Shown here piece after piece: positions 29,658 to 46,601 of a stretch of 64,000 nt of DNA (the stretch's first letter is position 1; every line of letters starts with the position of its first letter). The notes beneath the pieces were generated by a model. That model was not told the origin of the DNA and ran no database searches. It was given only the letters and a program-made list of their open reading frames with translations. Origin of the DNA: Methylobacterium sp. WL1 (GTDB lineage: Bacteria > Pseudomonadota > Alphaproteobacteria > Rhizobiales > Beijerinckiaceae); the NCBI RefSeq assembly GCF_008000895.1, contig NZ_CP042823.1, forward strand, positions 2,297,001 to 2,361,000, written 5' to 3'. Position numbers and translations under genes: made by a program.

Positions 29658-32600
29658 GTGACACAACGTACAGACATTGCGATCGTCGGACGCGCATGCC
29701 GACTGCCCGGGGCCCCCAGCGTCGATGGGCTATGGCAACTCCTGTCCGAGGGACGCTGCGCCGTCAGCAAGGTTCCCAGTGACCGCTTCTCCCTCGACCG
29801 GTTCGCGCATCCGCGCGCCCAGGAGCGCGGGAAGAGCTACACCTGGGCCGCGGGCGTCATCGACGATATCTGGTCGTTCGACCCGGCCGTGTTCGGCATC
29901 TCGCCCCGCGAGGCCGAGCAGATGGATCCGCAGCAGCGGATGCTGCTGGAGCTGACCTGGGAAGCCCTCGAGGATGCAGGCCTGCGCCCGTCGAGCGTGG
30001 CCGGCAGCAACATCGGCGTGTTCGTCGGCGCCTCGTCGCTCGATTACGGCAACCTGCGCATCCTCGACGCGGCCTCCGGCGACGCCTACGCGGCCACCGG
30101 CAACACGCTCTCGATCATCTCGAACCGCATCTCGTATATCTTCGATCTGAAGGGCCCGAGCTTCACGGTCGACACGGCCTGCTCGTCCTCCCTCGTCGCC
30201 TTCGACAACGCCGTGCAGGCGATCCAGTCGGGCCGCGTTGACACCGCGGTCGTGGCCGGCGTCAACGTGCTGGCGAGCCCGTTCAACTTCATCTGCTTCT
30301 CCACCGCGCAGATGCTCTCGCGCACCGGCCTGTGCCAGGCGTTCTCGAAGAACGCAGACGGCTACGTGCGCTCCGAGGGTGGCGTGGTGTTCGTGCTGCA
30401 ATCGGCCGAGGCCGCGCGGCGCAACGGCGCCACCGTGCGCGCCCGGATCGTGGCCTCGGGCATCAATTCCGACGGTCGCACCACCGGCATCTCGCTGCCG
30501 TCGGGCTACGCCCAGGGTGCCCTGCTGGAGCGGGTGTACCGCGACGCGGAGATCGGCCTCGACGACCTCGCCTTCATGGAGGCGCACGGCACCGGCACCC
30601 CGGTGGGCGACCCGATCGAGGCCTCGGCCATCGGGACCAAGCTCGGGCGCGGCCGTCAGGCGCCGCTGCCGATCGGCTCGATCAAGACGAATATCGGCCA
30701 CACCGAGCCGGTTTCCGGCCTCGCCGGCCTGATGAAGGCGACGCTGGCGCTGGAGCACAATCTCGTGCCGCCCTCGCTGCACGCGGCCGAGCTGAATCCC
30801 GACATCCCGTTCGACGAGTTGAACCTCAGCGTCGTCCGCGAGGCGCTGCCGATCACCCGCGGTCCGCGCGAGCGCTACGCGGGCGTGAACTCCTTCGGCT
30901 TCGGCGGCACCAACGCGCACGTCGTGATCACCGACGGCAACGTCGGCACGCAGGCGGCGGAGGCCACCCCGGCGCCGTCCGCGCAGGTTCTGCTGCTCTC
31001 GGCCCAGACCCGCGCCGCGCTGAACGAGCTCGCCCTCGACTATGCCGAGCGGCTCGAAGCCGAGCCCGGCCGGATCGCCACGGTGGCCGCCGCGGTCGCG
31101 CACCGGCGCGAGCGCCTGCCCGCCCGCCTGGCGATCACGCTGGACGGCAAGACCGACGTGGCCGCCGCCCTGCGCGCCGTAGGCGAGGGCGAGGATGCCC
31201 AGGACGCCTTCACCGGCACCGCGGTCGACCGCGCCGCCGAGGTGGCGTTCGTCTATTCCGGCAATGGTAGCCAGTGGGCCGGCATGGGCCGCGAGGCCTA
31301 CGAGGAGAACCCGACCTTCCGGGCCGCCTTCGACCGGGTCGACACCCTGTTCCAGGCCTATGCCGACTGGTCGCTGAAGCAGGCCCTCTACGCCGAGGAC
31401 CTCGACGAGCGCCTGGCGCTCACCAGCGTCTCGCAGCCGCTGATCTTCGCCATCGAGAGCGCCTCGACGGCGGCCCTCAAGGCCAAGGGCCTGATCCCCT
31501 CTTACGTGCTCGGCCACAGCGTCGGCGAGATCGCCGCCGCCGAGGCGGCCGGCGTCCTGAGCCTCGAGGACGCGGTCCGAGTCATCTACTATCGCAGCCA
31601 CCACCAGGAGACGACGCACGGCCAGGGTACCATGGCGGTGCTGCTGATGCCGTCCGAGGAGGTCGAGGCTTTCCTCAAGGACTACCCGTCCCTCGACATC
31701 GCCGCCTACAATAGCCCGAAGGCCGTCACGGTCGCCGGGCCGGTGGCCGACATCGAGGCCGCCCTGAAGGCGCTGTCGCGCAAGCGCCGTCGCGGCCGCA
31801 AGCTCGACCTGGCCTACGCCTTCCACGGGCGCCTGATGGACCCGACCGAGAAGCCGCTGCTGCGCGATCTCGCCGGGCTGAAGGCGAAGGCCGGCACCAC
31901 CGCGATGGTCTCCACCGTCACCGGCAGCGTGCTGGAGGGCGACAATTTCGGCGCCGGCTACTGGTGGCGCAACATCCGTGAGCCGGTGCGCTTCAGCGAG
32001 GCCGTGCAGGATGCCACCCGCCGCGGCGCCCGCGTGTTCGTCGAGGTCGGCCCGCGCGCGACGCTGATGTCCCATGTCGGCGACGCGGTCGAGCCGCTCG
32101 GCATCGAGACCGCCACGGTCGGCGTCATGCACCGCAAGGCGTCGGGCGGCGACCCGATCGCCAAGGCGGTCAGCGCCGCCCTGGTCCAGGGCGCGCAGGT
32201 CGACGAATCCCTGCTCTTCGGCGACGCCCCCCGGGGCGACGTGCGCCTGCCGACCTATCCGTGGCAGCGGCGTCCGTTCCGCCTGGCCGACACCCCGGAG
32301 AGCGTCGGCGCGATGAGCGCCCGCCCCTACCACCCGCTGATCGGATCGCGGACCACCTTCGACGGCCTGGAGTGGAACGGCTTCGTCGATCCGGCCACCC
32401 TGCCCGAGCTGGAGGATCATCGGGTCGACGGCCAGGTGATCATGCCCGGCGCCGGCTTCGTCGAGATGGCGCTGGCCTGCGTCCGCGAGGCGATGCGCCA
32501 CGACGAGGTGGTGCTGGCCGATTTCGAGATCCTGTCGCCCATGGTGTTCGCCGAGGAGGCCCTGCGCGAGGTCGCGGTGCGTCTGTCGGGGACCGGCAAC

Positions 32601-35600
32601 GGCATCCAGGTCCTCAGCCGCCCGCGCCTGACCCAGACCCCCTGGCAGCTCCACGCCCAGGCCAAGATCGTCGACGGCACGTTCACGGCTCCGAAGGCGC
32701 CCGACCTGAACGGGTTCGACTTCGACACCGCCGGCGAGCAGGTCCTGTCCGGCGACGCGCTCTACGGCCGCGCCCGGGCCTCGGGCCTCGGCTTCGGCCC
32801 GAGCTTCCAGCAGGTCGCCATGAGCGCCCGGCTGGATGATACCACCATCGTGTCCGACCTGCTGCCGGCCGTGGCCGACGACCGGTTCACCCTGGTCCCG
32901 GCCCGCCTCGACGCCTGCTTCCACGGGCTGATCCTGCTGTTCGCCGACCTGCTCGGCGAGAACGCCGGCAAGGCCTACATCCCGGTGCGCTTCGGCGAGG
33001 TGCGGCTTCTGCGCCCCGGTGCGGTGATCGCCCGTTCGATCATCCGGACGCGCCGCTGCAACGAGCGCTCGATCCTGGCCGACTTCACCCTGCTCGACGC
33101 CGACGGCGCAGTGGTCGCCACGATCCGCGAGGGCCGTTTCCAGGCCCTGCGCGCCAAGGGCGGCGGCGACCTCTCGGCCTTCGCGATCTCGCAGGTGCCG
33201 GAACTCGCCACCGAGCCGACCGCGATCCCGATGGAGCGCCGGCCGAGCGTGGCCGCCCGCCTGCGTCCGCTCACCGCCGAGGCGAAGGGGCCGGCCGACG
33301 CCGCCCTGTCCCCGGGCCACCTCCTGCTGGAGGGTTGGGCGACCTCGCTGGCCTATCGTCTCGCCTCCGGGCTGGCCGAGGGCGGGACCGTCTCGGTCGC
33401 CGACCGGCGGGTGCCCGAGGCCCTGCGCCCCTGGGTGCTGAACGCGCTCTACGCCCTGGAGAGCAGCGGCCTGGCCGAACGTGCCGGCCAGAACTGGACC
33501 CTGGGCGAAGACGGCTCGGCGCTGCCGGCTCCCGACGAGATCATGCGCTGGATCGCGGGCGACCACCCGGATCTCTCCGCCGAACTGGTGCTGATTGCCG
33601 ATGTCGGCGCCATGGTCGATCGGCTGCTCGCGGGCAAGCTGACCGAGGCCCCGGCCTTGCCTCAGGGCGCGATCGACGCCTTCGTCATGCGCTCGGCCAC
33701 CGCCCGCCACACGGCCGACGTGGTCGCCGGCCTGATCGAGGCCAGCCGCGGACACCTACCGAAGGAGCGCGCCCTGCGGGTCCTGCAGGTCGGCTTCGGC
33801 CCGCTCTCCGCCCAGGCTGCGGCCTTCGCCGCCGCGGCCGAGGCCCGGCTGACCGTGTTCGAGGCGGATCGCCGGCTCGCCGAGCGTGCCCGCCTGTCGC
33901 TCACCAACGGCGCCGCCGTCGTCGAGGCTGCCGACGAACTCGCCCCCGGCAGCTTCGACCTGATCCTGGCGGCCGGCAGCCTGCATCGCGGCGACCGCGC
34001 CCTGCCGGGGCAGCTCTCCGGGGCGCTCGCCACCGGTGGCCTGCTGGTGGCCGTGGAGCCGGGCGCGTCCCTGTTCCGCGACCTCGTGTTCGGCCTCACG
34101 GGCGGCTGGTTCGAGGAGGCCGTGGGCGGCATGCCCGTCGGCCGCCTCGAGGATATCGAGGGCTGGCAGCGCACGCTCAGCGCCCACGGCCTGGTCAAGG
34201 TCGCGGTGGAGCGCGCGGCGTCGGCCAACGGCGACGACCTGCTGCTGGTCGCCGAGGCCCCGGTGCGTCCGGGCCCCGCCCCGGCGCAGAGCTTCGCCTT
34301 CGTGATCGGCTCGGACGACGAGTTCGCGGCCGAGACGGCCTCGTCCCTGGCGACCCTGCTGGTCGCGGGCGGCGTGCACGTCTCGATCATCCTCGACTCC
34401 GAGACGTCGCTGATGGAGCTGGAGAAGGAGACCCCCGACACGGTGGTGTTCCTGGCCGGCGCCTTCACCCGCGGCGGCGAGGCGTCCGAGCGGCTGCGCG
34501 ACCGCTGCCTCAGCCTGAAGCGCTGCACGGAGCATCTCGGTGCCCGCCAGACCCGCCTGTGGGTCGTGGCGCCGGGCGCGACCCGCGACCGCGGCGGCCA
34601 GACCACCAACATCGAGGCCGGCGTGTGGGCGTTCTCCCGGACGCTCGCCAACGAGGCGCCGAACCTCGACGTGCGCCGCATCGACCTCTCGCCCGAGATG
34701 TCGTCGAAGCGGGCATCCGAGCGCCTGCGCGACCTCATCCTCTCCGGTACGCCGGAGACCGAGATCGTCCTCGACGACGAGCGGACGCAGGTCGTGCGCT
34801 TCCATGCCGGCCGGCCGAAGCACCGGGATCCGGCGGATGCCGTCCCGGCCGAGGCCGCGCGCCTGGAGCGCAGCAACACCGGCGGCCTCAACGAGATGGT
34901 TTGGGGTCCGGCCGAGCGCCGCACCCCCGGCAAGGGTGAGATCGAGATCGCGGTCGAGGCCACCGGCCTGAACTTCCGCGACGTCCTATGGGCGCTCTCG
35001 ATGCTGCCCGAGGAGATCCTGGAGGACGGCTTCGCCGGCCCCCGCCTTGGCCTCGAATGCGCCGGCCGCGTCACCGCCGTCGGCCCCGGCGTGAAGGGCG
35101 TCAAGGCCGGCGACCCGGTCGTCGCCTTCGCCCAATCGGGCTTCGCCACCCACATCGTGGTGCCCGAGATCGTCGTCGCGCCGAGTCCGCAGGGCCTGGA
35201 CCCGATGGCGGCCGCGACCGTCCCGGTGGCGTTCCTGACCGCCTATTACGGCCTCGTCTCCTGCGCCCGGATGCGGCGCGGCGAGTGGGTGCTGGTCCAT
35301 GGCGGCGCGGGCGGCGTCGGCCTTGCCGCGCTGCAGATCGCCAAGCTGAAGGGCGCGCGGGTCATCGCCACCGCCGGCTCCCGCGAGAAGCGGGCCCTGG
35401 TGAAGGCGCTGGGCGCCGAGCACGTGCTCGATTCCCGCTCCCTCGCCTTCGTGGACGAGATCCGGGCGATCACCGGCGACGGCGTCGACATCGTGCTGAA
35501 CAGCCTGTTCGGCGAGGCGATGGAGCGCTCGCTCAACGCCCTCCGGCCGTTCGGCCGCTTCGTCGAGCTGGGCAAGCGCGACTACGTCGCCAACACCCAT

Positions 35601-37103
35601 ATCGGCCTGCGTCCGTTCCGGCGGAACCTCAGCTACTTCGGCGTCGACCTGGATCAAGTGATCCAGCACCAGGGCGACGACGGCGCGCGGATGTTCCGGG
35701 AGGTCATGGCCCTGTTCAACGACGGCGGCCTCAAGCCCCTGCCCTACCAGCCGTTCACGGCGGCCGAGACCTCCGACGCGTTCCGGCTGATGCAGCAATC
35801 GGGTCACATCGGTAAGATCGTGATCAGCCCGCCCAAGGCCGGCACGATCATCAAGGAGACCAAGCGGCCGTTCACGGTCTCGGAGACCGGCGTCCACCTC
35901 GTGACCGGCGGCCTCGGCGGCTTCGGCCTGGAGGCGGCCCGCTGGCTCGTCGACAAGGGCGCCCGGCACCTCGTTCTCGCCGGCCGCAAGGGCGCGACCA
36001 CCGATGAGGCCAAGGCGATCGTCGCCGAACTCGCCGGGCGCGGCGTCAAGGTCGAGGCCAAGGCCGTCGACATCACCAGCCGTTCGGCGGTGGATCGCCT
36101 GATCGTGGAGATCGAGCAGGGTGGAAAGACGCTCGCGGGCGTTCTCCACGCCGCGGCGGTGCTTCAGGACGGCCTGATCGCCAACATCGACGCGGCGGCG
36201 CTGGACGCCGTGATCGGCCCGAAGGTGGTCGGCGCCCAGCACCTGGACGCCGCCACCCGGGACCGCAGCCTCGACTACTTCGTGATGTTCTCGTCGGCGA
36301 CGACGTTCATCGGCAACCCCGGCCAGGGCTCCTACGTCGCCGCCAACGGCTTCATGGAAGGCCTGGCCCGGCAGCGCCGTCGTCGCGGCCTGCCCGCGCT
36401 GGCGGTGGCCTGGGGCGCGATCGGCGATGTCGGCATGCTCGCCCGCAACAAGGCGGTCATGGAAGGCCTCGCCGGCCGTGTCGGCGTCACCCCGATGGAG
36501 GCGCGACGCTGCCTCGAGCTGATGGCGGACGCCTTGGAAAGCCAGGGGACCTCGCCGGACGAGGCGGTGATCGCCATCGCGGCGATGCATTGGGGCAAGG
36601 CGCGCGAGCGGCTCGCCACGATGCGCTCGCCGAGCTACGCCGGTCTCGGGTCGGATCAGCAGGCGGAGGCCGGCGGCGTCCAGGCGATCAACATCGGCGC
36701 GCTCCTCAAGGGAGGCGACGTGGATGCGGTCCGCAAGACGGTGTCGGACGCGATCGTCGAGGACATCGCGCGCATCCTGCGCCTGCCCAAGGACGATATC
36801 AGCCGCGTGCGCCAGCTCTCCGAGATCGGCCTCGACTCACTGATGGGCGTCGAACTCGGCGCCAGCCTGCAGGAGCGCTTCGCCCTCGATGCGCCGCCCG
36901 CCGGCCTGTCGTCCGGCATGACGGTCAACGAGTTGTCGGAGTCCTTAATTCAGGCGGTTTCCGCGCCCATGGATGAAGCGGCCGGTGTCGCGATGAGCCT
37001 CGTCTCGAAGCATATCGGTGGTGAGATCGACGCGCAGATGATGGCGCCGCTCAGGGAACTCATCGAGAAGACCAACAGCGAGCTCAAAGAGACCAACTCA
37101 TGA
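29658..37103 (+). CDS. Fully reducing type I polyketide synthase (RkpA-like), KS-AT-DH-(MT)-ER-KR-ACP
   Basis: A single-module iterative-type PKS of ~2,481 residues from the GTG at 29658; the frame is open to 29421, so the start is uncertain. KS triad: Cys175 (DTACSSS), His310 (EAHGTGTP), His348 (NIGH). AT: Ser621 in GHSVGEIAA. DH: His921 in HRVDGQVIMP. A degenerate methyltransferase-like stretch spans ~1335-1550. ER has GGAGGVG at ~1882-1888; KR has GGLGGFG at ~2084-2090 and Tyr2226 (GSYVAANG). ACP: Ser2394 in GLDSL. There is no thioesterase. The stop overlaps the oxoamine synthase ATG, so release is probably by condensation with an amino acid. The layout matches rhizobial RkpA of K-antigen loci. 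Confidence 0.92.
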   Translation: MTQRTDIAIVGRACRLPGAPSVDGLWQLLSEGRCAVSKVPSDRFSLDRFAHPRAQERGKSYTWAAGVIDDIWSFDPAVFGISPREAEQMDPQQRMLLELTWEALEDAGLRPSSVAGSNIGVFVGASSLDYGNLRILDAASGDAYAATGNTLSIISNRISYIFDLKGPSFTVDTACSSSLVAFDNAVQAIQSGRVDTAVVAGVNVLASPFNFICFSTAQMLSRTGLCQAFSKNADGYVRSEGGVVFVLQSAEAARRNGATVRARIVASGINSDGRTTGISLPSGYAQGALLERVYRDAEIGLDDLAFMEAHGTGTPVGDPIEASAIGTKLGRGRQAPLPIGSIKTNIGHTEPVSGLAGLMKATLALEHNLVPPSLHAAELNPDIPFDELNLSVVREALPITRGPRERYAGVNSFGFGGTNAHVVITDGNVGTQAAEATPAPSAQVLLLSAQTRAALNELALDYAERLEAEPGRIATVAAAVAHRRERLPARLAITLDGKTDVAAALRAVGEGEDAQDAFTGTAVDRAAEVAFVYSGNGSQWAGMGREAYEENPTFRAAFDRVDTLFQAYADWSLKQALYAEDLDERLALTSVSQPLIFAIESASTAALKAKGLIPSYVLGHSVGEIAAAEAAGVLSLEDAVRVIYYRSHHQETTHGQGTMAVLLMPSEEVEAFLKDYPSLDIAAYNSPKAVTVAGPVADIEAALKALSRKRRRGRKLDLAYAFHGRLMDPTEKPLLRDLAGLKAKAGTTAMVSTVTGSVLEGDNFGAGYWWRNIREPVRFSEAVQDATRRGARVFVEVGPRATLMSHVGDAVEPLGIETATVGVMHRKASGGDPIAKAVSAALVQGAQVDESLLFGDAPRGDVRLPTYPWQRRPFRLADTPESVGAMSARPYHPLIGSRTTFDGLEWNGFVDPATLPELEDHRVDGQVIMPGAGFVEMALACVREAMRHDEVVLADFEILSPMVFAEEALREVAVRLSGTGNGIQVLSRPRLTQTPWQLHAQAKIVDGTFTAPKAPDLNGFDFDTAGEQVLSGDALYGRARASGLGFGPSFQQVAMSARLDDTTIVSDLLPAVADDRFTLVPARLDACFHGLILLFADLLGENAGKAYIPVRFGEVRLLRPGAVIARSIIRTRRCNERSILADFTLLDADGAVVATIREGRFQALRAKGGGDLSAFAISQVPELATEPTAIPMERRPSVAARLRPLTAEAKGPADAALSPGHLLLEGWATSLAYRLASGLAEGGTVSVADRRVPEALRPWVLNALYALESSGLAERAGQNWTLGEDGSALPAPDEIMRWIAGDHPDLSAELVLIADVGAMVDRLLAGKLTEAPALPQGAIDAFVMRSATARHTADVVAGLIEASRGHLPKERALRVLQVGFGPLSAQAAAFAAAAEARLTVFEADRRLAERARLSLTNGAAVVEAADELAPGSFDLILAAGSLHRGDRALPGQLSGALATGGLLVAVEPGASLFRDLVFGLTGGWFEEAVGGMPVGRLEDIEGWQRTLSAHGLVKVAVERAASANGDDLLLVAEAPVRPGPAPAQSFAFVIGSDDEFAAETASSLATLLVAGGVHVSIILDSETSLMELEKETPDTVVFLAGAFTRGGEASERLRDRCLSLKRCTEHLGARQTRLWVVAPGATRDRGGQTTNIEAGVWAFSRTLANEAPNLDVRRIDLSPEMSSKRASERLRDLILSGTPETEIVLDDERTQVVRFHAGRPKHRDPADAVPAEAARLERSNTGGLNEMVWGPAERRTPGKGEIEIAVEATGLNFRDVLWALSMLPEEILEDGFAGPRLGLECAGRVTAVGPGVKGVKAGDPVVAFAQSGFATHIVVPEIVVAPSPQGLDPMAAATVPVAFLTAYYGLVSCARMRRGEWVLVHGGAGGVGLAALQIAKLKGARVIATAGSREKRALVKALGAEHVLDSRSLAFVDEIRAITGDGVDIVLNSLFGEAMERSLNALRPFGRFVELGKRDYVANTHIGLRPFRRNLSYFGVDLDQVIQHQGDDGARMFREVMALFNDGGLKPLPYQPFTAAETSDAFRLMQQSGHIGKIVISPPKAGTIIKETKRPFTVSETGVHLVTGGLGGFGLEAARWLVDKGARHLVLAGRKGATTDEAKAIVAELAGRGVKVEAKAVDITSRSAVDRLIVEIEQGGKTLAGVLHAAAVLQDGLIANIDAAALDAVIGPKVVGAQHLDAATRDRSLDYFVMFSSATTFIGNPGQGSYVAANGFMEGLARQRRRRGLPALAVAWGAIGDVGMLARNKAVMEGLAGRVGVTPMEARRCLELMADALESQGTSPDEAVIAIAAMHWGKARERLATMRSPSYAGLGSDQQAEAGGVQAINIGALLKGGDVDAVRKTVSDAIVEDIARILRLPKDDISRVRQLSEIGLDSLMGVELGASLQERFALDAPPAGLSSGMTVNELSESLIQAVSAPMDEAAGVAMSLVSKHIGGEIDAQMMAPLRELIEKTNSELKETNS

Positions 37104-38467
37104 CCGATACGGCACGGCCTGACGGCGGGCGCGCGGCGCTCGCCGGCTTCGTGACGAACCGCCTCGGACGCGCGACGCCGCGCCCGGCGCCCGTCAAGGC
37201 GGCTTCGCCAGCCGGGCAATCGGCCGCACAGAACTTCGAGAACCTGCCGGGCTACCGCGAGCTGCAGCTGCAGCGCCAGGCGGCGCAGCTGATCGGGCTG
37301 GGCAACCCGTTCTTTCGCGTCCACGACGCGAAGGCCGGTGCGACCACGCGGATCGACCAGAAGACCTTCACCAACTTCTCGTCCTACGACTATCTCGGCC
37401 TGAACGGGCATCCCCGGGTCAGCAACGCGGCCCGGGAGGCGATCGACGCCTACGGCACCTCCGCGTCGGCGAGCCGTGTGGTGGCGGGCGAGCGGCCGGG
37501 CCATATCAGCCTCGAGCAGGCCCTGGCCAAGCACTACCGCACCGAAGGCTGCATCGTGATGGTGAGCGGCCACGCCACCAACGTCACGACCATCGGGGCG
37601 CTCCTGGAAGCCGGCGACGTGATCTTCCACGACGCGCTGTCCCACAACAGCATCGTCACCGGCGCGCAGCTCTCCGGCGCCCAGCGCCGCTCCTTCGCGC
37701 ATAACGACCTCGACGCCCTGGAGAGCCTGCTCCAGAACACCCGCCACGAGCACCGCCGGGCGCTGATCGTGGTCGAGGGCCTGTACAGCATGGACGGCGA
37801 CGCGCCGGACCTCGCGGGTCTCGTCGCGCTCAAGAAGCGCTACGATGCGTGGCTTATGGTCGACGAGGCGCACGGCCTCGGCGTCACCGGCCGCACCGGG
37901 GCGGGCCTGTTCGAGCATTGCGGCGTCGACCCGAAGGAGGTCGACCTCTGGATGGGCACGCTGTCGAAGACGCTGTCGACCTGCGGCGGCTATATCTGCG
38001 GCCCGATCGCGCTGATCGAGTACCTCAAGCACACGGCGGGCGGCTTCGTGTACAGCGTCGGCATGTCGCCGCCCCTCGCCGCCGCCGCCGAGGCGGCGCT
38101 GGCGGTGATGCATGCCGAGCCGGAGCGGGTCGAGCGCCTGCGCCAGAACGGCACGCTGTTCCTCGCCACCGCCAAGAAGCTCGGCCTCGATACCGGCTTC
38201 AGCCTCGGCCTCGCGGTGGTGCCGATCATCGTGGGCGACTCCCTCAAGGCCGTGACCCTGTCGGACCGCCTGTTCCGCCGCGGCATCAACGTGCAGCCGA
38301 TCATCCACCCGGCCGTGCCCGAGCGGGCCTCGCGCCTGCGCTTCTTCCTCACCTCCGAGCACACCGCGGACCAGATCCGCGACACCGTGAACGCGGTGGC
38401 CGAGGAGATGATGGCGATCGACAAGGGCGGCTCGCTGATCGAGCAGCTTCTGGCCAAGCGCGGCTGA
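37100..38467 (+). CDS. Alpha-oxoamine synthase (RkpG-like; serine palmitoyltransferase/KBL family)
   Basis: A 455-residue PLP enzyme that condenses an acyl thioester with an amino acid, losing CO2. The PLP Lys290 sits in TLSKTLST, Asp255 and His258 in VDEAHGLG. FSSYDYLGLNGHP and YGTSASASRVVAGER are family hallmarks. Its ATG overlaps the PKS TGA (ATGA). A ~60-residue N-terminal extension may dock to the PKS ACP. Expected product: a 2-amino-3-ketone with the PKS chain, comparable to 3-ketosphinganine. The amino acid used cannot be read from sequence. Confidence 0.92.
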   Translation: MTDTARPDGGRAALAGFVTNRLGRATPRPAPVKAASPAGQSAAQNFENLPGYRELQLQRQAAQLIGLGNPFFRVHDAKAGATTRIDQKTFTNFSSYDYLGLNGHPRVSNAAREAIDAYGTSASASRVVAGERPGHISLEQALAKHYRTEGCIVMVSGHATNVTTIGALLEAGDVIFHDALSHNSIVTGAQLSGAQRRSFAHNDLDALESLLQNTRHEHRRALIVVEGLYSMDGDAPDLAGLVALKKRYDAWLMVDEAHGLGVTGRTGAGLFEHCGVDPKEVDLWMGTLSKTLSTCGGYICGPIALIEYLKHTAGGFVYSVGMSPPLAAAAEAALAVMHAEPERVERLRQNGTLFLATAKKLGLDTGFSLGLAVVPIIVGDSLKAVTLSDRLFRRGINVQPIIHPAVPERASRLRFFLTSEHTADQIRDTVNAVAEEMMAIDKGGSLIEQLLAKRG

Positions 38468-38556: not shown

Positions 38557-38599
38557 CTCCGGATCCCACGCCGGCCCGGAGGCCGGCGTGTCGGCCAGC

Positions 38600-39784
38600 C
38601 TACTTGGCGTAGGCGTAGGCGGTGGCCGCGGAGCTGAGCGGGCCGGTGACGCCGCTGAAGGCGGTCAGCACCTTCTGGACCTCGGTGAACGGGGCGTTCG
38701 AGACGTAGATCAGGTCGCGGTTGCGCATGCGGAACGCCTGGGTGGTGAACAGGCTGTTGGGGTCGCGCATGTTGATCCGGTACACCACCGGCACCAGCGG
38801 GGTGCCGGTGAGCTTGGTGGCCGGGTTGAGGCGGCGCACCACGCTGGCGGGCTCGAACCGGAAGATGAAGGTGCCGGCCGGGTCGGCGGCGAAGTCCGAG
38901 AGGCCGCGCGCCTTGGCGAGCGCCTGGGCCAGGGTGATCCCGTCGGCCTGGAACGGCAGCTCGGTCGCCTGGCCGAGCGCGCCCACCGCCAGGAAGGTCT
39001 GCGGATCGCGCACCAGGGTCAGCACGTCGTTGGGCCGCAGGTAGATGTTCTCCTTAGGGTTCGACACCACCGTGGTCAGCGGCACCGTGGCGGTGACCGG
39101 CCCGCGCGACAGGCGCACGAAGGTCTCCGAGACCGGCGAGCGGTTGCCGCCCGCCGACGCGATGACGTCGAGGATGCGGTCGCCGTGGCCCGACAACGGC
39201 AGGCGCGCGCCGGCGGCGCCCTCGCCGGTGACGGTCACCGCCTGGCTGATCGGCCGGGTGACCGAGACCAGCACCTGCGGCTGGATCGCCTTGCCGGCGA
39301 GCTCGTTCTCGATCAGGCCCTGGACGTCCTGGGGCCGGCGGCCGGCGACCTTGATGCGCCCGGCATAGGGCACCGAGATCGCGCCATCGCGGCCGACCGG
39401 CTGCTCGGGGATGAGGGCGGACTTGGAGCCGGCGGAGAAGCGGTCGGCCACCAGCGGGCCGGAGAACAGGCCGCCGGAGCCGGCCTCCCAGACCGAGACC
39501 GAGACCATGTCGCCGATGCCGATCACCGGCTCGGTGGAGGGGCGGTGGTCACCGAAGGAGGCGAGCAGGCTGTCGAGGGGCCGGCCGCGCAGGGCCTCGA
39601 CCACGGATGGGGTGACGTCGATGATTTCGTAGCGGGCGAGCACGCCGCCGTCGGCGGTGGCGACTTCCGCGCCAGCCTCGATCGCGCTGGCCGTCGGACC
39701 CGCCGCGGGCAGGTACGTGCAGCCGCCGATGGACCCTGCCGCGAGGGCGGCCATCAGCGCTGAGAGCGCCGTCTTACGCAGCAT
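38600..39784 (-). CDS. Wza/KpsD-type polysaccharide export lipoprotein
   Basis: A 394-residue outer-membrane polysaccharide export protein. The lipoprotein signal ends at Cys22 (GSIGGC), preceded by a hydrophobic helix. A Poly_export (PES) domain follows at ~90-180 (IGIGDMVSVSVWEAG, GRDGAISVPYAGRIKVAG), then SLBB-like repeats (VTVTGEG; NIYLRPNDVLTLV). The ATG at 39784 has an AGGAGA site. It presumably forms the outer-membrane channel for the capsule made by neighbouring genes. A Wzc/KpsE-type inner partner is not in the window. Confidence 0.92.
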   Translation of the reverse strand: MLRKTALSALMAALAAGSIGGCTYLPAAGPTASAIEAGAEVATADGGVLARYEIIDVTPSVVEALRGRPLDSLLASFGDHRPSTEPVIGIGDMVSVSVWEAGSGGLFSGPLVADRFSAGSKSALIPEQPVGRDGAISVPYAGRIKVAGRRPQDVQGLIENELAGKAIQPQVLVSVTRPISQAVTVTGEGAAGARLPLSGHGDRILDVIASAGGNRSPVSETFVRLSRGPVTATVPLTTVVSNPKENIYLRPNDVLTLVRDPQTFLAVGALGQATELPFQADGITLAQALAKARGLSDFAADPAGTFIFRFEPASVVRRLNPATKLTGTPLVPVVYRINMRDPNSLFTTQAFRMRNRDLIYVSNAPFTEVQKVLTAFSGVTGPLSSAATAYAYAK

Positions 39785-39989
39785 CACAGAGACTTCTCCT
39801 CGCCGGCCTCCGCGCCATCGCTGGCTCGGACCGGGACATCCATGGTGACCGCCAAACGCTGCGATCGCTTTAACGGCCGCGTCGAACAGGCGGGCGCCGT
39901 GCGGAACCCACTTCTCGGACAGCTTCGCTATCGGCCGGCAATGCGTCACCAGCGTGGCACTGCCGAGCTTGTTGCCGTCAAGCTTAACC

Positions 39990-41483
39990 TTATCGCGTCC
40001 TTGCCGGCATGTCCGCAAGGGCGCCAGCCAGGGTGGACCGCAGCTCCCGCCCCAGGGCATCGGCAGCGATGTCCCGTCGCTTCGGCGGGACAGGGGGCCC
40101 GCCGAAGCGGAACAGGGCGTAATCGGTCGCCTGACCGCCGAACCCGGGCTTGCAGGTCGGCAGCGAGGGGGCGTGGTCCCCGAAGACGCAGAGCGTGACG
40201 GTCTGGCCGCGCTCGCGCGCCAGGGCGTCGAGCCCGGCCACCAGGTTCTCGACCATCCGCCCTGTATTGACCACGTGGTGGAGGTACTGCGCCTCCGGGG
40301 CGTCGATCCCGGGCAGCCGACCGGGCTTCCACGGTCCGTGATTCTCCATCGTGACGCAGAATAGGAACAGCGGGGTGCGCCGCCCCCGGACCTCGTCGAG
40401 CAGACGCTCCCCGAGGGCGACGTCGCCGACATAGGGGCCGATGCGGGGGGCGGCCGCGAATGTTTCGCCCATCACCAGGTCGCCGAAGCCGAAGGCCTGC
40501 ATGACCTTCGCCCGGCGAAAGAAATCCCGGTGGAACGGGTGCAGGAACAGGGTGCCGTAACCCCGGCTCCGGGCCAGCCGGGCGAGGCTGGTCGGCTCGT
40601 CGCCGCTGCGGGAGGTATAGGGATCGTACCGGCCGAAGCCGAGGCTTTCGGAGGGGCGGCCCGTGAGCACGGCGTGCTCGCTGCGCATGGTGTAGGCGCC
40701 GTGCGCCGGGACCCGCAGCCGGCCGTATTGCGCAGCCCGGGTGCGGAACAGCTCCATCGCGGGCAGTGCCGGGCCGCCGAGGCGCTCCGGGTCGATGAAC
40801 GATTCGAGCTGGATCACCACGACCACGTCGTCGCCCGGGCCGGCCTGCAGCACCGGCACGTCCGGGACCGGGGCGCTGCCCGCCAGCGCCCGGGCCGTGT
40901 AGCCGAGCAGGCTCGCCGGCAGGCCGACCCGCGCGACATCGGCCTCCAGGTCGGGCTCCGGGAACCATTGCGCGACGAGGCCAGCGAGCGGCGGCCGGGA
41001 CGCGGCGCGGAACAGGATCCACAGGGCGAGCGGCAAGCCGAGCAGCGCCGCGACGCGCAGGAGCGGCCCGCCCGGCAAGACGCTGGGCTCGGTCCGGTAC
41101 CAGATCACCGTCGCGATCAGGGTCAGGATCACCGGGACCGCGATGCGCGGATCCCAGAGCGGCGGGATGTAGTAGAGCTGCGGGTGTCGCGGCACCTGCG
41201 GCAGCAGGACGAAGTCGCTGAACAGCAGCGGCTCGCCGATCACCGATCGCTTCGCGCGGCTGACATAGATCAGCGCCGCCACGGAGACCACGCAGGTCAG
41301 GGCAGCCAGCCACGGCCGCCACGAGAAGCAGAACCAGAACAGCAGGATCAGCGAGTAGCCGAGCAACCGCAGGGCGAGATCGCCCGGCGCGAGACTGGCC
41401 CGGGTGAGCGAATCGCCGACGAAGACTTCGAGGGCGAGGCAGAGGGCCAGCGCGAGGCTGGCGGCGGTGAGGAACGTCGTCAA
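39990..41483 (-). CDS. LtaS-like sulfatase-fold membrane enzyme (RkpI-like)
   Basis: About 497 residues if started at the TTG at 41483; the frame is open to 41807 and the true start is unclear. Five hydrophobic segments (for example SLALALCLALEVFV and LLGYSLILLFWFCF) precede an alkaline-phosphatase/sulfatase-type domain. That domain has VVIQLESF, the nucleophile region HGAYTMRSEHAVLTG, TMENHGPW and CVFGDHAPSLP as metal-binding landmarks. LtaS-type enzymes transfer phosphoglycerol or phosphoethanolamine; here it may decorate or assemble the capsule. It lies downstream of the kpsC-like gene on the same strand. Confidence 0.8.
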   Translation of the reverse strand: MTTFLTAASLALALCLALEVFVGDSLTRASLAPGDLALRLLGYSLILLFWFCFSWRPWLAALTCVVSVAALIYVSRAKRSVIGEPLLFSDFVLLPQVPRHPQLYYIPPLWDPRIAVPVILTLIATVIWYRTEPSVLPGGPLLRVAALLGLPLALWILFRAASRPPLAGLVAQWFPEPDLEADVARVGLPASLLGYTARALAGSAPVPDVPVLQAGPGDDVVVVIQLESFIDPERLGGPALPAMELFRTRAAQYGRLRVPAHGAYTMRSEHAVLTGRPSESLGFGRYDPYTSRSGDEPTSLARLARSRGYGTLFLHPFHRDFFRRAKVMQAFGFGDLVMGETFAAAPRIGPYVGDVALGERLLDEVRGRRTPLFLFCVTMENHGPWKPGRLPGIDAPEAQYLHHVVNTGRMVENLVAGLDALARERGQTVTLCVFGDHAPSLPTCKPGFGGQATDYALFRFGGPPVPPKRRDIAADALGRELRSTLAGALADMPARTR

Positions 41484-41697
41484 GGTCCTGGAACTCGGAG
41501 AGGGGCAAGCGCGCGAGCGAGCGATACGGCATCCGACCCGGCACGGAAGAACATGTTGAAACAAGGGCTTCGGGACGTTCCCTGAAGCGGGGGCCTCGGC
41601 GTCACCCCCTCTTCCGCTACAAGAGAAGCCGGCCCTATCCCCGTTTGCGGGCTCGAAAAATCCGGGACACCGGATGTCACGGCGGTGCTCCCTGCCC

Positions 41698-43194
41698 TCA
41701 GCGCGGTCCAGCCTCGCGGCCGACGCCGCGGCGCCGGCGCAACGCCCGCACGATCGGATTGAACAAGCCGTAGCGGGCGCGCATGACCCAATGGGCGGTG
41801 CGGCCAATCGAGAGCGCGCTGCGCGGTGCGGCCTCGCGGGCGGCGCTCAGCCGGTCGAGAAGCTGCTCGGGGCTGCAGGGTTTCATCGCTACGGGGTCGA
41901 GGTAGCGCGAATAGAGGATCATCGCCCCGGCTACCAACTCGTCCAGGGTGAGCTTGCGGCCACGGTCGGCTCCCGGCGCCAGATCCTCGGACAGGCCCCA
42001 GCCCGAGTAGAACGGACGGCCATGAGTGGCCACGGTGAGCCCGCGGATCAGCGCCTCGAAGCCCGCGAGCGAGGTCATGGTCTCGACGTGGTGGACCCGG
42101 TCGAGCAGGTCGACGATGCTGACCCCCGCCACGATCCGGTCGGCGAGCGCCAGCACCTCCGCCTCCGGGATGATGCCGGGGCGAAACCCCGCCTCGACGT
42201 CGGGATGGGGCTTGTAGAGCAGGAAGGCGTCGGGGTTGCGCCGCCGGGCGGCCTCGAGCAGCGCCCGGTTGGACCGGACCAGCGGCGAGCCGTGCTGCAC
42301 CGAGGCGTCGTCCTCCACCTGTCCCGGCACCAGCACGATCCTGCGGCCGGCCGGCCAATCGAGCGATGCGGCGTCCAGGCCAACATTGTACTTGCTGAGG
42401 CGGCGGGCCACGACCTCCTCACGCAGGCGCTTAGCCCGGCTCACGAGTTCGGGCGGGAAATCCGATTCGGCCAGCAGCCGTTGCAGGCGGCTCTCCCTGC
42501 GGGGATCGTAGTAGATGCCGAGGTCGTCGACCACGATCGAGGCGCCGGGCTGCAAGCTCGCCCCGAGGCCCACCGAGCGTAGGAATCCGTCCTCCACCCG
42601 GGCGAGCGGCAGGCCGGCCAGCGTGCAGGCGTCTTCAAGCTTGCCCGGGGCCCGCGTCGCCCAGGCGAGGATCCGGCCGTGATGGCGCTGGCCCGCTTCG
42701 ACCGCGGCCTCGGCCGTCATGGTGTGGACCGGGCGCCCGGCGGGCCCGGTGCCGAGCACGTCGAGGGCCGTCCTCTTCCAGCGTGACATGCCGACATAGA
42801 CGACGCGCCGGTCGTTCTCGGCGAAGCGTGCGGCGAGCCAGGCCACCGCCTCGGCGCAGGCCTCGCGGCCGATCGGCGCGCGGGTCCAGGGATCGAGGTA
42901 GTGGATGCCGCCCTCCCCGCCGAGCGGCACGTCGTCGAGGCTGATCCGCAAAGATGCGAAGCCCGTCTCCGGCCGATCGTACGGGCTGACCAGGGGACCC
43001 GGCGCGACGACGAGCCTGCGCCGGCCGGTCAGCGCGAGCAGCCGCGCCGCCAGGCTTCCCGCCTGCCAGACGGCGCCGACTGCACCGGGCCGCACCGGCC
43101 CGAAGGCGAGACCCGTCGCGGCCTCGATCTCCGTCCGCAGGCGGTGGATCGTCCGGCCGGTCGCATAGAGCGACGGGGTCGGTTCAAGGGACAT
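41698..43194 (-). CDS. KpsC-like capsule glycosyltransferase, single-domain version
   Basis: A 498-residue capsule polysaccharide protein of the KpsC/LipA family. In group 2 capsules KpsC adds the beta-Kdo linker to the lipid terminus. The signature EDGFLRSVGLG...DDLGIYYDP is found once, whereas full KpsC has two such modules. FLLYKPHPDVEAGFR and THGRPFYSGWGLSED are also family features. The ATG at 43194 begins MSLEPTPSLYATG; longer starts are possible. It is divergent from the kpsS-like gene. Together they imply a lipid-linked capsule, but Kdo use is not proven. Confidence 0.85.
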   Translation of the reverse strand: MSLEPTPSLYATGRTIHRLRTEIEAATGLAFGPVRPGAVGAVWQAGSLAARLLALTGRRRLVVAPGPLVSPYDRPETGFASLRISLDDVPLGGEGGIHYLDPWTRAPIGREACAEAVAWLAARFAENDRRVVYVGMSRWKRTALDVLGTGPAGRPVHTMTAEAAVEAGQRHHGRILAWATRAPGKLEDACTLAGLPLARVEDGFLRSVGLGASLQPGASIVVDDLGIYYDPRRESRLQRLLAESDFPPELVSRAKRLREEVVARRLSKYNVGLDAASLDWPAGRRIVLVPGQVEDDASVQHGSPLVRSNRALLEAARRRNPDAFLLYKPHPDVEAGFRPGIIPEAEVLALADRIVAGVSIVDLLDRVHHVETMTSLAGFEALIRGLTVATHGRPFYSGWGLSEDLAPGADRGRKLTLDELVAGAMILYSRYLDPVAMKPCSPEQLLDRLSAAREAAPRSALSIGRTAHWVMRARYGLFNPIVRALRRRRGVGREAGPR

Positions 43195-43544
43195 GATGGG
43201 GCGCCCGGCTCCGGTCATCTGACTCGTTCGGGCCGTCGTGTAGCGCATTTTCTCCGGCATGGGATGGCCGGCCCAAAACCACCGAAATCACAGGGACAAG
43301 CGCGTCCGTTCGCGCAAAGCGTCACGTCGCGGAAAGGATTTGGACATATCGTCGCCGTGATTGACCCTTCAATCCAGGCGGGGGCCGCGAAAGTGCGACC
43401 GTTGCAGACGGGCCACGCCGGAGCGGAAACGCCCTCCTGCGACGCGGCCTCGGATTGCCGGCTCGCGCCGAGGCGTGCCACCTCAGGTCAGTCTTTCCGG
43501 TCCGGCTCCGTCCGGCCGAGGGTCAAGGATAGAAGCGCCGCGGA
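43195..43544. promoter_or_regulatory. Divergent region between kpsC- and kpsS-like genes
   Basis: 350 bases presumably contain both divergent promoters. I see no further gene, riboswitch-like structure or clear operator. Confidence 0.35.
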
Positions 43545-44852
43545 ATGCATAAGACCGCCCCCGACGCCCTCCGCGACCGCCCCGCAACCTTTCTGTTCCT
43601 GCAGGGCATCGCGTCTCCGTTCTTCTCCGATCTCGGCACGGCGCTGCGCGCCCGGGGACACGAGGTCCGGCGCATCAACCTGTGCCCCGGCGACTGGCTG
43701 TTCTGGAACGGTAAGGCGGACAATTACCGCGGCCGCCGCGAGGCGTGGGGCACGTATCTCGAATCATATCTCGACCGCGAGGCCGTCACGGACATCGTGC
43801 TGTTCGGCGATTGCCGGCCGTTCCACCGGGCGGCCCGGATGATCGCGGAGGTCCGCGGCCTGCGCGTCCACGTGTTCGAGGAAGGCTACATCCGTCCCAA
43901 CTGGATCACCTGCGAGCTCGGCGGGGTGAACGGCTTCTCGTCCCTGCCCCGCACGGCGGCCGAAGTCCGCGCGCTGGCGCGCCGCCTGCCCCAGCCCGGC
44001 CGGGCAATGCCCTCAACCGGCGATATGGCCCGCCGCAGCGTCTGGGATGTCGGCTACAACATCGCCAACATCGCCTTCCCTTATCTCTTCCCACATTTCC
44101 GCAGCCACCGGCCGACCCATATCGCGGCCGAGTACGCGGGCTGGATCAAGAAGTTCAGCCGCCGCTCCCACACCCGCCGCGAGGCAGCGCGCTGCGACGA
44201 GATCTACCGTGCGGTCGGCTGCGACTACTTCCTTCTGCCGCTCCAGCTCGACAGCGACTACCAGATCCGGGTGCACTCGCCGTTCCTGGGCGTCGAAGGC
44301 TTCATGGACCGGGTGATCAAGTCCTTCGCGGACGCGTCCTCGGCGCCGACGCGCCTCCTCGTGAAGCTGCATCCGCTGGACAGCGGCCTGATCAACTGGC
44401 GCAAGTTCGCCCGTGCCTCGGCCCGGCGCCACGGCGTCAGCGACCGGCTCGACTTCATCGACGGCGGCGACCTTCCGTCGCTGATCAAGGGCGCCCGCGG
44501 CGTCGTGATCGTCAACTCGACCGTCGGCATGCTGTCGCTGGAGATGGGCCGGCCGACTCATGCGGTCGGCACCGCGATCTACAACATGGCCGGACTGACC
44601 CATCAGGCCGACCTCGATGGGTTCTGGACGAACCCGACCCCGCCGGACATGGGCCTGATGGCCGATTTCCGCCGCGTGGTGCTACACCGGACACAGGTCA
44701 ACGGCGGCTTCTTCTCCAAGGGGGCGATCGAGCGGGCGGTGGCCGGCTCGGTGCCGCGGATGGAATCCGCCCTCCCCGATTCGATGCTGGCCGCCGCGCG
44801 GGTGATCCGCGAAGGCGGCGAGAGCGACGGGCAACTCGCGCCCGTCTACTGA
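43545..44852 (+). CDS. KpsS-like capsule polysaccharide protein
   Basis: A 435-residue member of the KpsS/LipB family, the partner Kdo transferase that acts first on the lipid acceptor in group 2 capsules. Landmarks are FLFLQGIASPFFSDLG, RINLCPGDWLFW, VLFGDCRPFHRAA, VFEEGYIRPNWIT and LLVKLHPLDSG. If it acts like KpsS, its acceptor would be the capsule's lipid anchor, which makes the nearby PKS/oxoamine synthase set meaningful. It begins a run of three genes with the reductase and formyltransferase. Confidence 0.88.
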   Translation: MHKTAPDALRDRPATFLFLQGIASPFFSDLGTALRARGHEVRRINLCPGDWLFWNGKADNYRGRREAWGTYLESYLDREAVTDIVLFGDCRPFHRAARMIAEVRGLRVHVFEEGYIRPNWITCELGGVNGFSSLPRTAAEVRALARRLPQPGRAMPSTGDMARRSVWDVGYNIANIAFPYLFPHFRSHRPTHIAAEYAGWIKKFSRRSHTRREAARCDEIYRAVGCDYFLLPLQLDSDYQIRVHSPFLGVEGFMDRVIKSFADASSAPTRLLVKLHPLDSGLINWRKFARASARRHGVSDRLDFIDGGDLPSLIKGARGVVIVNSTVGMLSLEMGRPTHAVGTAIYNMAGLTHQADLDGFWTNPTPPDMGLMADFRRVVLHRTQVNGGFFSKGAIERAVAGSVPRMESALPDSMLAAARVIREGGESDGQLAPVY

Positions 44853-44973
44853 AGCGTGGCGGCAAACGTGTCGGTTCCGGCTGACAGTTTCCGGGGCCGG
44901 CCGACCCATTAAGTCACCGAAGAGCCGTCACCGGCCTTGATTTGTCCGTGCTCCGCGGCGTAGCACCCGCACC

Positions 44974-45741
44974 ATGCCCCGCATTCTGATCACTGGCGCG
45001 TCGAGCGGTATCGGCGCTGCGCTCGCACGCCACTACGCGCGTGCCGACGCAAGCCTCATCCTCGTCGGACGCAACGTCGAGCGGCTCGAAGCCGTGGCCC
45101 GGGATTGCCGGGCGAGCGGCGCGACCGTCGAGCCCGTGCGGCTCGACACCCGTGACCGGGCCGCCGCGATCGCCCTGATCCACAGGCTTCACGCGGCGCA
45201 GCCGCTGGACCTCGTGATCGCCAACGCGGCCGTGAACGGCGGTAACCAGAAGGGCGAGGTCGAGTCCGAGGAGACGGCCTTCGAGACCTCCGACATCAAT
45301 TACACGGGCTCTCTCAACATCGTGCTGCCCACCCTGACGTTGATGCTTCAGCGCGGCAGCGGCCAGATCGTGCTCGTCTCCTCCCTGGCGGCCTACGCGC
45401 CGCTGCAGGATGCCCCGGCCTATAGCGGCGCCAAGGCCGCCCTGGTCGCCCACGGGCTGGCCTTGCGCCAGAAGGTCGGGCCACGGGGCGTGAAGGTCAA
45501 CGTCGTTGCGCCGGGCTACGTGAAGACCCCGATGGGCGGCGAGCTGAAGGGCTGGCGGCCCCTGGAGATGAGCGCCGAGCAGGCTGCCCTGCGCATCGCC
45601 AAGGGCGTCGCCAAGGATCGCGACGTGATCGCCTTCCCGTTCGCGCTGGCGGCCTTGGCCAGGACCGTCCTACTTCTTCCTGAGAGCATTCGCCGGGCCG
45701 GGCTCTACGCCTTCCGGTTCCAGCGGCGGCCGCGCCGCTGA
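44974..45741 (+). CDS. Short-chain dehydrogenase/reductase (RkpH-like)
   Basis: A 255-residue classical SDR. The cofactor motif TGASSGIG is at residues 7-14; NAA follows at ~82, and the catalytic Tyr150 and Lys154 are in YSGAK with SS upstream. The C-terminal region (LPESIRRAGLYAFRFQRR) is basic and may touch the membrane. In rhizobial rkp loci the SDR RkpH accompanies RkpA and RkpG; 3-ketodihydrosphingosine reductases are from the same broad family. The likely job is reducing the keto group made by the oxoamine synthase. Its TGA overlaps the formyltransferase ATG. Confidence 0.85.
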   Translation: MPRILITGASSGIGAALARHYARADASLILVGRNVERLEAVARDCRASGATVEPVRLDTRDRAAAIALIHRLHAAQPLDLVIANAAVNGGNQKGEVESEETAFETSDINYTGSLNIVLPTLTLMLQRGSGQIVLVSSLAAYAPLQDAPAYSGAKAALVAHGLALRQKVGPRGVKVNVVAPGYVKTPMGGELKGWRPLEMSAEQAALRIAKGVAKDRDVIAFPFALAALARTVLLLPESIRRAGLYAFRFQRRPRR

Positions 45742-46601
45742 TGAGCCGCGCCCGGATCGCCCTGTTCGTGCTGGAGGCGCTGCCGAATGCCCGGGTGGTG
45801 CGCCGGTTCGTGGCCGATCACAGCGCCGACATCGCCTTCGTCGGGCTCTCGAACGCGGAGCGGCCGTCAAGCGGCGGGCTGACCGGGCAGGTCCGGCGCC
45901 ACCTCACGCGGTCGGGGACCGGGATCCTTCCGTATCTGGCGGTGAATTTCGGGCTGCCCGACCTGCTGCGGCCGCTGGCGCCCCTGACCCAGGCCGTGGC
46001 CGGCAGCGGCGACGCGCCGGAATCGACGCCGCTCAAGACCCTGTGTCGGCGCCTCGGCATCCCGACCCTGACGGTGGACGACGTCAACGGTCCCGAGGTC
46101 GCACAGAGGGTGCGCGAGACCGCCCCCGACCTGATCCTGACCTATCATTTCGATCAGATCCTGAAGGCCGAGACCATCGGGTTGGCGCGGCTCGGCGGCA
46201 TCAACGGCCATCCCGGGCTGCTGCCGCGCCATCGCGGGCCGGTCCCGACGATCCACGCCCTAGCGGACGGCCCGGGCGCCTTCGGCATGACCCTGCACTG
46301 GCTCGCCGCCACGATCGACACCGGGGCTATCCTCGCCCAGGAGGCCGTGCCGCTGCCCGCGGACACCACCGCCACCCGGGCGGCCTTGGCGCTCCACGCC
46401 CATGGCCGCGGACTGCTGGACCGCCTGCTCGATGAGATCGCCCGCACCGGCCGCATGCCCGAGGGCCGCAGCACCGCCGTCCTGCCCTACTGTCCGTTTC
46501 CGGATCGCGCGCTGCTCGCCTCCCTGCGCCGGAGGGGCCTGCGCCTGACCGACGGACGGGACCTGCGCGAGGCGGTGAGCCTGTCTGGCCGGGCCGGTTA
46601 A
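45741..46601 (+). CDS. Formyltransferase-family protein in the capsule locus
   Basis: A 286-residue folate-type formyltransferase. The N-H-D catalytic set is visible: Asn155 and His157 in INGHPGLLPRHRGP, Asp193 in ATIDTGAIL. The C-terminal part is not the Fmt tRNA-binding domain, so this is not methionyl-tRNA formyltransferase; small-molecule or sugar N-formylation is likely. TGATG overlap with the reductase indicates coupling. A candidate substrate is the amine of the PKS/oxoamine product or an aminosugar of the capsule. This component is not one I know from described rkp loci. Confidence 0.8.
   Translation: MSRARIALFVLEALPNARVVRRFVADHSADIAFVGLSNAERPSSGGLTGQVRRHLTRSGTGILPYLAVNFGLPDLLRPLAPLTQAVAGSGDAPESTPLKTLCRRLGIPTLTVDDVNGPEVAQRVRETAPDLILTYHFDQILKAETIGLARLGGINGHPGLLPRHRGPVPTIHALADGPGAFGMTLHWLAATIDTGAILAQEAVPLPADTTATRAALALHAHGRGLLDRLLDEIARTGRMPEGRSTAVLPYCPFPDRALLASLRRRGLRLTDGRDLREAVSLSGRAG

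Follow-up and report, generated by a model that had tools for sequence, protein, structure and literature searches.

Genes for a putative sphingoid-base capsule acceptor in a Methylobacterium capsule locus

The rkp-1 genes of the Sinorhizobium K-antigen and the sga genes of Pseudomonas fluorescens MYb115 are the described systems closest to the gene cluster reported here, which lies in a 64,000-nucleotide stretch (the window; C2:2297001-2361000) of the 6.25 Mb genome of Methylobacterium sp. WL1. In this cluster, genes for a fully reducing polyketide synthase (PKS), an alpha-oxoamine synthase (AOS), a short-chain dehydrogenase (SDR) and a formyltransferase are found with KpsS-, KpsC-, Wza- and LtaS-like genes beside a UDP-glucose dehydrogenase gene, all of them as originally predicted from the DNA. 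On balance we favour the reading that the cluster makes a sphingoid-base lipid which is the acceptor of an ABC-transporter-dependent capsule.

With rkp-1 the window shares a PKS/fatty acid synthase-like gene (RkpA) adjoining an AOS-like gene (RkpG), a pair also present in a S. meliloti record (L084), as well as SDR, LtaS-like and KpsC/KpsS-like genes within one block. It differs from rkp-1 in gene order, in its linked KpsS/KpsC pair and in the formyltransferase. We take the letters rkpA, G, H, I and J to belong to this gene set, and the Burkholderia wcb capsule genes are presumably the same set. By its title, a 2009 study by Muller reportedly found rkp-1 to be required for secretion of the 3-deoxy-D-manno-octulosonic acid (Kdo) capsule in strain Rm1021. 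A role in making and modifying a 'specific lipid carrier' has been proposed for the rkp-1 products (PMC4881576, citing Kiss 1997), and the same source states that rkp-1 is needed for Kdo capsule secretion in Rm1021; in the parts of that text consulted the idea is a lipid carrier and sphingoid chemistry is not mentioned. The rkp-1 gene set and the carrier proposal are already known; new here, it seems, are the identity of the capsule lipid, the function given to the LtaS-like enzyme, the capping of the amine and the split of KpsS.

In P. fluorescens MYb115, PfSgaA and PfSgaB (PKS and AOS) together with the SDR PfSgaC produce C24, C26 and C28 sphinganines, which were abolished in both gene knock-outs; PfSgaB prefers L-serine almost exclusively, and three compounds heavier by 154 Da were read as phosphoglycerol-sphingolipids by exact mass (Peters et al. 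2025, PMC12134224). Our mass arithmetic reproduces the published values (154.003; m/z 386.4, 414.4 and 442.4). By the same arithmetic the neutral mass of phosphoglycerol-sphinganine would be 539.395 (C24), 567.426 (C26) or 595.458 (C28), and that of its N-formyl form 567.390, 595.421 or 623.453. The window resembles this set in having a fully reducing PKS adjacent to an AOS, plus an SDR, and the MYb115 phosphoglycerol-sphinganines match the product expected from adding an LtaS-like enzyme. In that paper 6101 homologous clusters were counted, mostly in Burkholderia, and PfSgaABC, unlike the window, is presented as a cluster for secondary metabolites; the main text of the paper does not mention capsul, rkp, polysaccharide, LTA or sulfatase, and the parts consulted name no phosphoglycerol transferase.

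KpsS, KpsC and a Wza/KpsD-like protein are shared with group 2 ABC-dependent capsules (PMC7694667, PMC11041684, both consulted in part). Unlike E. coli group 2, the window has a single-module KpsC, a KpsS of another clade and lipid-making genes within the locus. Fungal clusters of the fumonisin/sphingofungin type are also PKS-derived, with the KDSR homologues FUM13 and SphF (cited in PMC12134224). They are toxin clusters in which, unlike the window, a capsule link is absent. In these fungal pathways an AOS joins the polyketide chain to an amino acid and reduction follows. No proposal of a sphingoid capsule anchor was met among the listed matches from CC-licensed literature, and the consulted parts of a 2025 review on capsule attachment do not mention sphing, Sinorhizobium or polyketide. 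The present reading joins the rhizobial capsule-lipid genes to PKS-derived sphingolipids, a link not met elsewhere in the literature searched.

Predicted synthesis of the sphingoid base

The PKS has the Pfam order KS-AT-DH-(unassigned, about 590 residues)-ER-KR-ACP, the stretch from DH to ER having no Pfam match, and its motifs are intact (DTACSS, EAHGTGT, NIGHTE, GHSVG, HRVDGQVIMP, GGAGG, TGGLGGFG and GLDSL). Since only 53 residues lie beyond the ACP match there is no thioesterase, and chain release would occur via another protein. The AOS start overlaps the PKS stop as ATGA. The domains, motifs and overlap thus bear out the predicted thioesterase-free PKS with a coupled AOS.

The closest solved structures to the window AOS are serine palmitoyltransferases (SPTs; 3a2b and 8guh), and in the AOS tree it branches apart from five SPTs. 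Its NCBIfam scores were 363 bits for the BioF model and 302 and 270 bits for SPT models, all under the cut-offs; for the canonical SPT models NF047599, NF047600 and NF047603 the scores were 270 of 500, 302 of 640 and 203 of 670 bits. The rest of the AOS family in the genome comprises three members, one BioF-like and two 5-aminolevulinate synthases (ALAS), and a canonical SPT was not found in this genome. The AOS is 98-100% identical to those of Methylobacterium mesophilicum, pseudosasicola and brachiatum, and 53% identical to that of a Pseudomonas plasmid (L085). A product from alanine or glycine, i.e. a fumonisin-like 1-deoxy or 2-aminoketone lipid used as anchor or otherwise, would agree with BioF, an alanine-type model, scoring above the SPT models; it is very unlikely in our view, as the nearest solved structures are SPTs and PfSgaB is almost exclusively L-serine-using (PMC12134224). 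The PKS-linked AOS of L084 and L085 also rank BioF over SPT, so the model rank is hardly informative and we set it aside in predicting which amino acid is used.

By sequence alone the window SDR is a generic SDR, encoded 6.5 kb from the PKS-AOS pair, and SDRs recur near PKS-AOS genes elsewhere. By analogy with MYb115 it is likely that the window PKS, AOS and SDR make a sphingoid base, and the almost exclusive use of L-serine by PfSgaB makes sphinganine (a 2-amino-1,3-diol) the likely product. The original prediction of a 2-amino-3-hydroxy long-chain lipid agrees with the PfSgaABC set, which is of the same kind, and extends to the window enzymes themselves by that analogy.

In the pathway that we propose, the acyl chain that the PKS builds on the ACP would be long and saturated, and the AOS, in the place of a thioesterase, would condense it decarboxylatively with an amino acid (L-serine being the likeliest) to 3-ketosphinganine, which the SDR would reduce to sphinganine. 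The LtaS/GacH-like enzyme would move phosphoglycerol from phosphatidylglycerol (PG) to a hydroxyl, giving a single-chain mimic of lyso-PG, and in this lineage the formyltransferase would cap the amine as N-formyl. KpsS would then add the first Kdo to the glycerol and KpsC would extend it, the polymer leaving through KpsMTE, for which candidates are found elsewhere in the genome, and the Wza-like protein. The steps up to condensation, the sphinganine product and, by exact mass, the phosphoglycerol-sphinganine have been demonstrated for the Pseudomonas set; for the window enzymes we infer these steps, the reduction and all later ones.

Association with capsule genes and the KpsS tree

The full arrangement of the cluster recurs in nine Methylobacterium loci (L005, L014, L018, L022, L032-L035 and L037), and the block of minus-strand Wza-LtaS-KpsC and plus-strand KpsS-SDR recurs in identical order in another family (G321, L128), on a different contig from PKS-AOS; the two halves of the locus can separate yet still co-occur. 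Three genomes from a different class (G609, G528 and G281, the last fetched as two pieces), whose AOS group with that of Nitrincola, have KpsC-KpsS-SDR-LtaS-PKS-AOS on one strand. The S. meliloti Ak57 record (L084) reads Wza-like / PKS-AOS-SDR-(LtaS-like)-capsule gene-KpsF, the LtaS-like gene not being annotated in the record. A chance or artefactual arrangement was set aside as it recurs across genera, and a secreted small molecule was set aside on the inference that the neighbours are capsule genes.

Of 80 loci, those with enough flank were counted; a large number, chiefly Methylobacterium loci on short contigs but also L051, L057, L065, L071, L074 and L080, were left out. KpsS-type Capsule_synth genes were present in the flanks of 11/17 Methylobacterium, 15/15 Roseibium-type and 7/9 Acetobacteraceae loci (family f27, probably this family by its nested Roseomonas rows). 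Four of six annotated records (S. meliloti, Pseudomonas, Paraburkholderia and Shinella) have such a gene; no KpsS-type match was found in the Caballeronia record, which has KpsD/M/T/E-like genes, or in the Planktothrix record (L089), which was left out of the plasmid group and counted as the sixth.

In 398 Pseudomonadota genomes, AOS (E <= 1e-120) was found in 23 and Capsule_synth (E <= 1e-25) in 59. Genomes with AOS above 590 bits had Capsule_synth in 14/16 cases compared to 59/398 overall (Fisher 5.6e-11), and in 8/10 when the genus of the window was removed (2.5e-6), the 590-bit split having been chosen post hoc with the scores already seen. Over all AOS genomes the figure was 15/23, and all six Methylobacterium genomes of this search had Capsule_synth. 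Among 240 Alphaproteobacteria, Capsule_synth was present in 6/7 genomes with AOS above 440 bits, compared to 39/240 overall. Near eight lower-scoring AOS loci (six of the seven lower-scoring genomes, G140 and a second copy in G484) no capsule gene was found, an SDR match being present in five and an LtaS-like gene in one; the capsule link thus belongs to the high-scoring group.

The KpsS tree was built from 32 rows from AOS loci or genomes and 18 AOS-free genomes, the latter taken from 44 with Capsule_synth (15/19 outside family f23 and 3/25 within it). The AOS label changed 3 times on this tree compared to a mean of 15 after shuffling, and none of 500 shuffles was as low. KpsS of AOS genomes fell in one 35-row clade (support 96/90 in the careful tree) that spans alpha-, beta- and gammaproteobacteria. 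Members of one family were split (the window and G070; G487 and G606), and KpsS of Paraburkholderia (L086) and Pseudomonas (L085) grouped with alphaproteobacterial AOS rows, so taxonomy does not explain the tree. KpsS of G547 and G588 and, in a later tree, of E. coli were outside the clade; the acceptor of E. coli KpsS is (lyso-)PG according to the parts of PMC7694667 consulted. Three AOS-free genomes (G536, G523 and G546) were inside, and all three have a canonical SPT over the curated cut-off, compared to 1/15 of those outside (p 0.0049). Their SPT genes lie far from KpsS, and physical linkage therefore cannot account for the pattern. In a further draw of 100 genomes from the order of G536, 45 had matches, and all 44 added KpsS rows (46 matches minus G643, with an internal stop, and G536, already included) fell inside the clade, placed by KpsS sequence only. 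A thinned tree, from which 43 rows, mostly near-copies, were dropped, gave split support of 100/98, a robustness test only as the groups were set from the preceding tree.

These results strengthen the predicted role of a sphingoid lipid as acceptor: the genes are co-conserved in the high-scoring genomes, with LtaS-like or Kps genes missing near several loci, and the KpsS phylogeny follows sphingoid synthesis. By homology and phylogeny, KpsS and KpsC probably use the sphingoid lipid as capsule acceptor. Several observations weigh against this. The active sites of LtaS-family enzymes are extracytoplasmic and KpsS and KpsC act in the cytoplasm, so the lipid would need to flip back or be modified later. 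An LtaS-like gene was not found in the fetched flanks of any of the 15 Roseibium-type, 9 Acetobacteraceae or 9 Reyranella-type loci, nor in 8/14 sampled high-scoring loci; the fetched flanks likewise lacked KpsS in 9/9 Reyranella-type loci, an SDR in 9/9 Acetobacteraceae loci and any capsule gene in 6/17 Methylobacterium loci. Only 1/7 of the lower-scoring AOS genomes has Capsule_synth, and two genomes with strong AOS (G543 and G189) have no Capsule_synth match, the one AOS of G189 adjoining KpsM/T/E-like genes. AOS and KpsS genes may co-travel by linkage, and G329, the sole exception seen, has a canonical SPT and a KpsS (L143) of the E. coli-type clade. In MYb115, induction of sgaAB left the phosphoglycerol lipids 4 and 5 unraised (PMC12134224).

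It is possible, but fairly unlikely, that PKS, AOS, SDR and LtaS make a sphingolipid that stays free in the membrane, or a metabolite active on a host, with KpsS and KpsC working on lyso-PG and the genes being neighbours as envelope genes. MYb115 makes free sphinganines and phosphoglycerol-sphinganines, treated as secondary metabolites (PMC12134224); the six Methylobacterium loci just mentioned are PKS-AOS without nearby capsule genes; and G543 (L099/L127) has SDR-LtaS-PKS-LpxC-AOS-GNAT with no capsule genes found, and is probably, by its gene content, a producer of free phosphoglycerol-sphingolipid. If the lipid were free, one would not expect the KpsS type to follow sphingoid synthesis, as it does even where a genome has its SPT unlinked to KpsS, or KpsC-KpsS-SDR-LtaS-PKS-AOS to lie along one strand; a free lipid also sits poorly with rkp-1 being reported necessary for Kdo capsule secretion in Rm1021 (PMC4881576).

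As a tentative and somewhat doubtful extension of the sphingoid acceptor, there could be two KpsS lineages by acceptor: one of the E. coli type that starts from (lyso-)PG, and an alpha/beta/gamma lineage on phosphoglycerol-sphinganine, with the base from PKS-AOS or canonical SPT and the amine formyl- or acetyl-capped in some branches; on that view the rhizobial rkp-1 genes would serve sphingolipid synthesis. The capsular polysaccharide (KPS) of S. meliloti 1021 is said, in the title of Fraysse 2005, to carry a phospholipid anchor, reportedly a phosphoglycerol bearing hydroxy-octacosanoic acid. This anchor might be C28 sphinganine-phosphoglycerol, with a computed mass of 595.458 compared to 594.426 for phosphoglycerol-hydroxy-C28 acid, about 1.03 Da apart. 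Should the proposal hold, this capsule pathway would not always use a glycerophospholipid as anchor, in contrast to the E. coli phospholipid; bacterial PKS-derived sphingolipids would gain a structural role, the missing phosphoglycerol transferase would be the LtaS-like enzyme, and the KpsS type of a genome would predict its anchor. A sphingoid anchor could also explain why root-nodule bacteria have a capsule-lipid gene set, the product of which has been unsettled.

Proposed lipid modification, gene layout and neighbouring genes

The original gene roles are extended here to the LtaS-like protein as phosphoglycerol transferase and the formyltransferase as probable amine cap. The LtaS-like protein has the alkaline-phosphatase fold with the nucleophile Thr and the metal-binding Glu, Asp and His present; its best relative is GacH (about 20% identity), and unlike LtaS and GacH, whose fold and catalytic residues it shares, it is Gram-negative and linked to sphingoid-lipid genes. 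An LtaS-like gene is present in 5/6 annotated records, Planktothrix being the exception. Judged by these features, the enzyme quite probably adds phosphoglycerol to the lipid.

The formyltransferase has the N-H-D catalytic triad within an Fmt/ArnA fold, and there is about an even chance, on this evidence, that it N-formylates the sphingoid amine. Among 240 Alphaproteobacteria only six matches besides the window were found, at <= 70 bits, so that within this sample close orthologues seem confined to the lineage; in some beta/gamma loci a GNAT acetyltransferase takes its place. We consider it unlikely that the formyltransferase and the LtaS-like enzyme modify the capsule sugar (amino-sugar N-formylation and phosphoglycerol decoration) and not the lipid. 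GacH decorates polysaccharide, and the sugar N-formyltransferases ArnA and WbkC are among the top fold matches of the formyltransferase, a comparison (Foldseek/VIA) that does not discriminate between lipid and sugar substrates. Modification of the sugar fits poorly with the formyltransferase adjoining AOS (five Acetobacteraceae loci), PKS (five Reyranella-type loci) or SDR (Methylobacterium), three different arrangements, with its hydrophobic helical insert (residues about 46-87) kept in 15 aligned relatives, and with the LtaS-like gene staying beside PKS-AOS-SDR in G543.

The KpsS-like protein scored 241 bits with NF050054 (KpsS), below the cut-off of 600, and had no solved relative at E <= 0.01. 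One glycosyltransferase module of about 300 residues was seen in the KpsC-like protein, so that the two-module, dual architecture expected for it was not borne out. Candidate KpsMT-KpsE genes are outside the locus: a KpsM-like gene (179 bits) is at C2:1.778 Mb, and KpsT- and KpsE-like genes adjoin at C2:3.544 Mb of the same genome. The UDP-glucose 6-dehydrogenase supplies UDP-glucuronate.

Table 1 Features of the locus (window positions) and of related records
Feature	Position	Strand	Basis
UDP-glucose 6-dehydrogenase (RkpK-like), immediately upstream of cluster	27933..29288	+	Pfam UDPG_MGDP_dh domains; TIGR03026 451 bits
Fully reducing iterative type I PKS, RkpA/SgaA-like, 2560 aa	29421..37103	+	Pfam, motifs
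AOS, PLP-dependent, RkpG/SgaB-like	37100..38467	+	Domain matches; nearest solved structures SPT 3a2b/8guh
Outer-membrane polysaccharide export protein, Wza/KpsD-like (OPX)	38600..39784	-	Poly_export + SLBB_2
LtaS/GacH-like membrane phosphoglycerol transferase, RkpI-like (predicted)	39990..41564	-	Sulfatase family match
KpsC-like protein, single Kdo-transferase module	41698..43260	-	Capsule_synth; KpsC 6mgd E 5.6e-61
KpsS-like initiating Kdo transferase (predicted)	43545..44852	+	Capsule_synth 266 bits; KpsS trees
SDR, RkpH/SgaC-like, candidate 3-ketosphinganine reductase	44974..45741	+	adh_short
N-formyltransferase with hydrophobic helical insert (predicted)	45741..46601	+
LpxC-like deacetylase (other records)	L086:14926-15840; L088:14940-15866; L099 about 13.3 kb

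The PKS starts at 29421 or, alternatively, at the in-frame GTG 29658, and the formyltransferase start overlaps the SDR stop as TGATG. On the minus strand, the genes for the Wza-, LtaS- and KpsC-like proteins probably begin further in than the longest open reading frames (ORFs), originally taken, would have it: the Wza-like gene likely starts at ATG 39784 or GTG 39787 within the ORF 38600-40432, the LtaS-like start is uncertain (TTG 41564 or 41483), and ATG 43194 is a possible start of the KpsC-like gene.

In the Planktothrix plasmid L089 and in L106 (G393), PKS and AOS are fused, with no KpsS- or KpsC-type match in the fetched flanks; judged by their genes, these are a non-capsule branch of the family. 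In Burkholderiaceae-type loci an LpxC-like deacetylase (PF03331, 220 bits in L086) lies between PKS and AOS; it may hydrolyse an amide of the lipid. On the Pseudomonas plasmid a phytanoyl-CoA dioxygenase-like gene (L085:21240-22283) lies beside AOS and KpsC, and our guess is that its product hydroxylates the sphingoid chain. Elsewhere in the window, an 893-residue ORF with a hydrophobic N-terminus (49434-52115, minus strand) had no Pfam match at E <= 0.001. Positions 2698-13968 encode LPG_synthase_TM, glycosyltransferase 21, radical SAM + B12-binding, YdjC, MMPL and radical SAM + DUF3463 domains, a gene set which we take to resemble a hopanoid (hpn) modification cluster.

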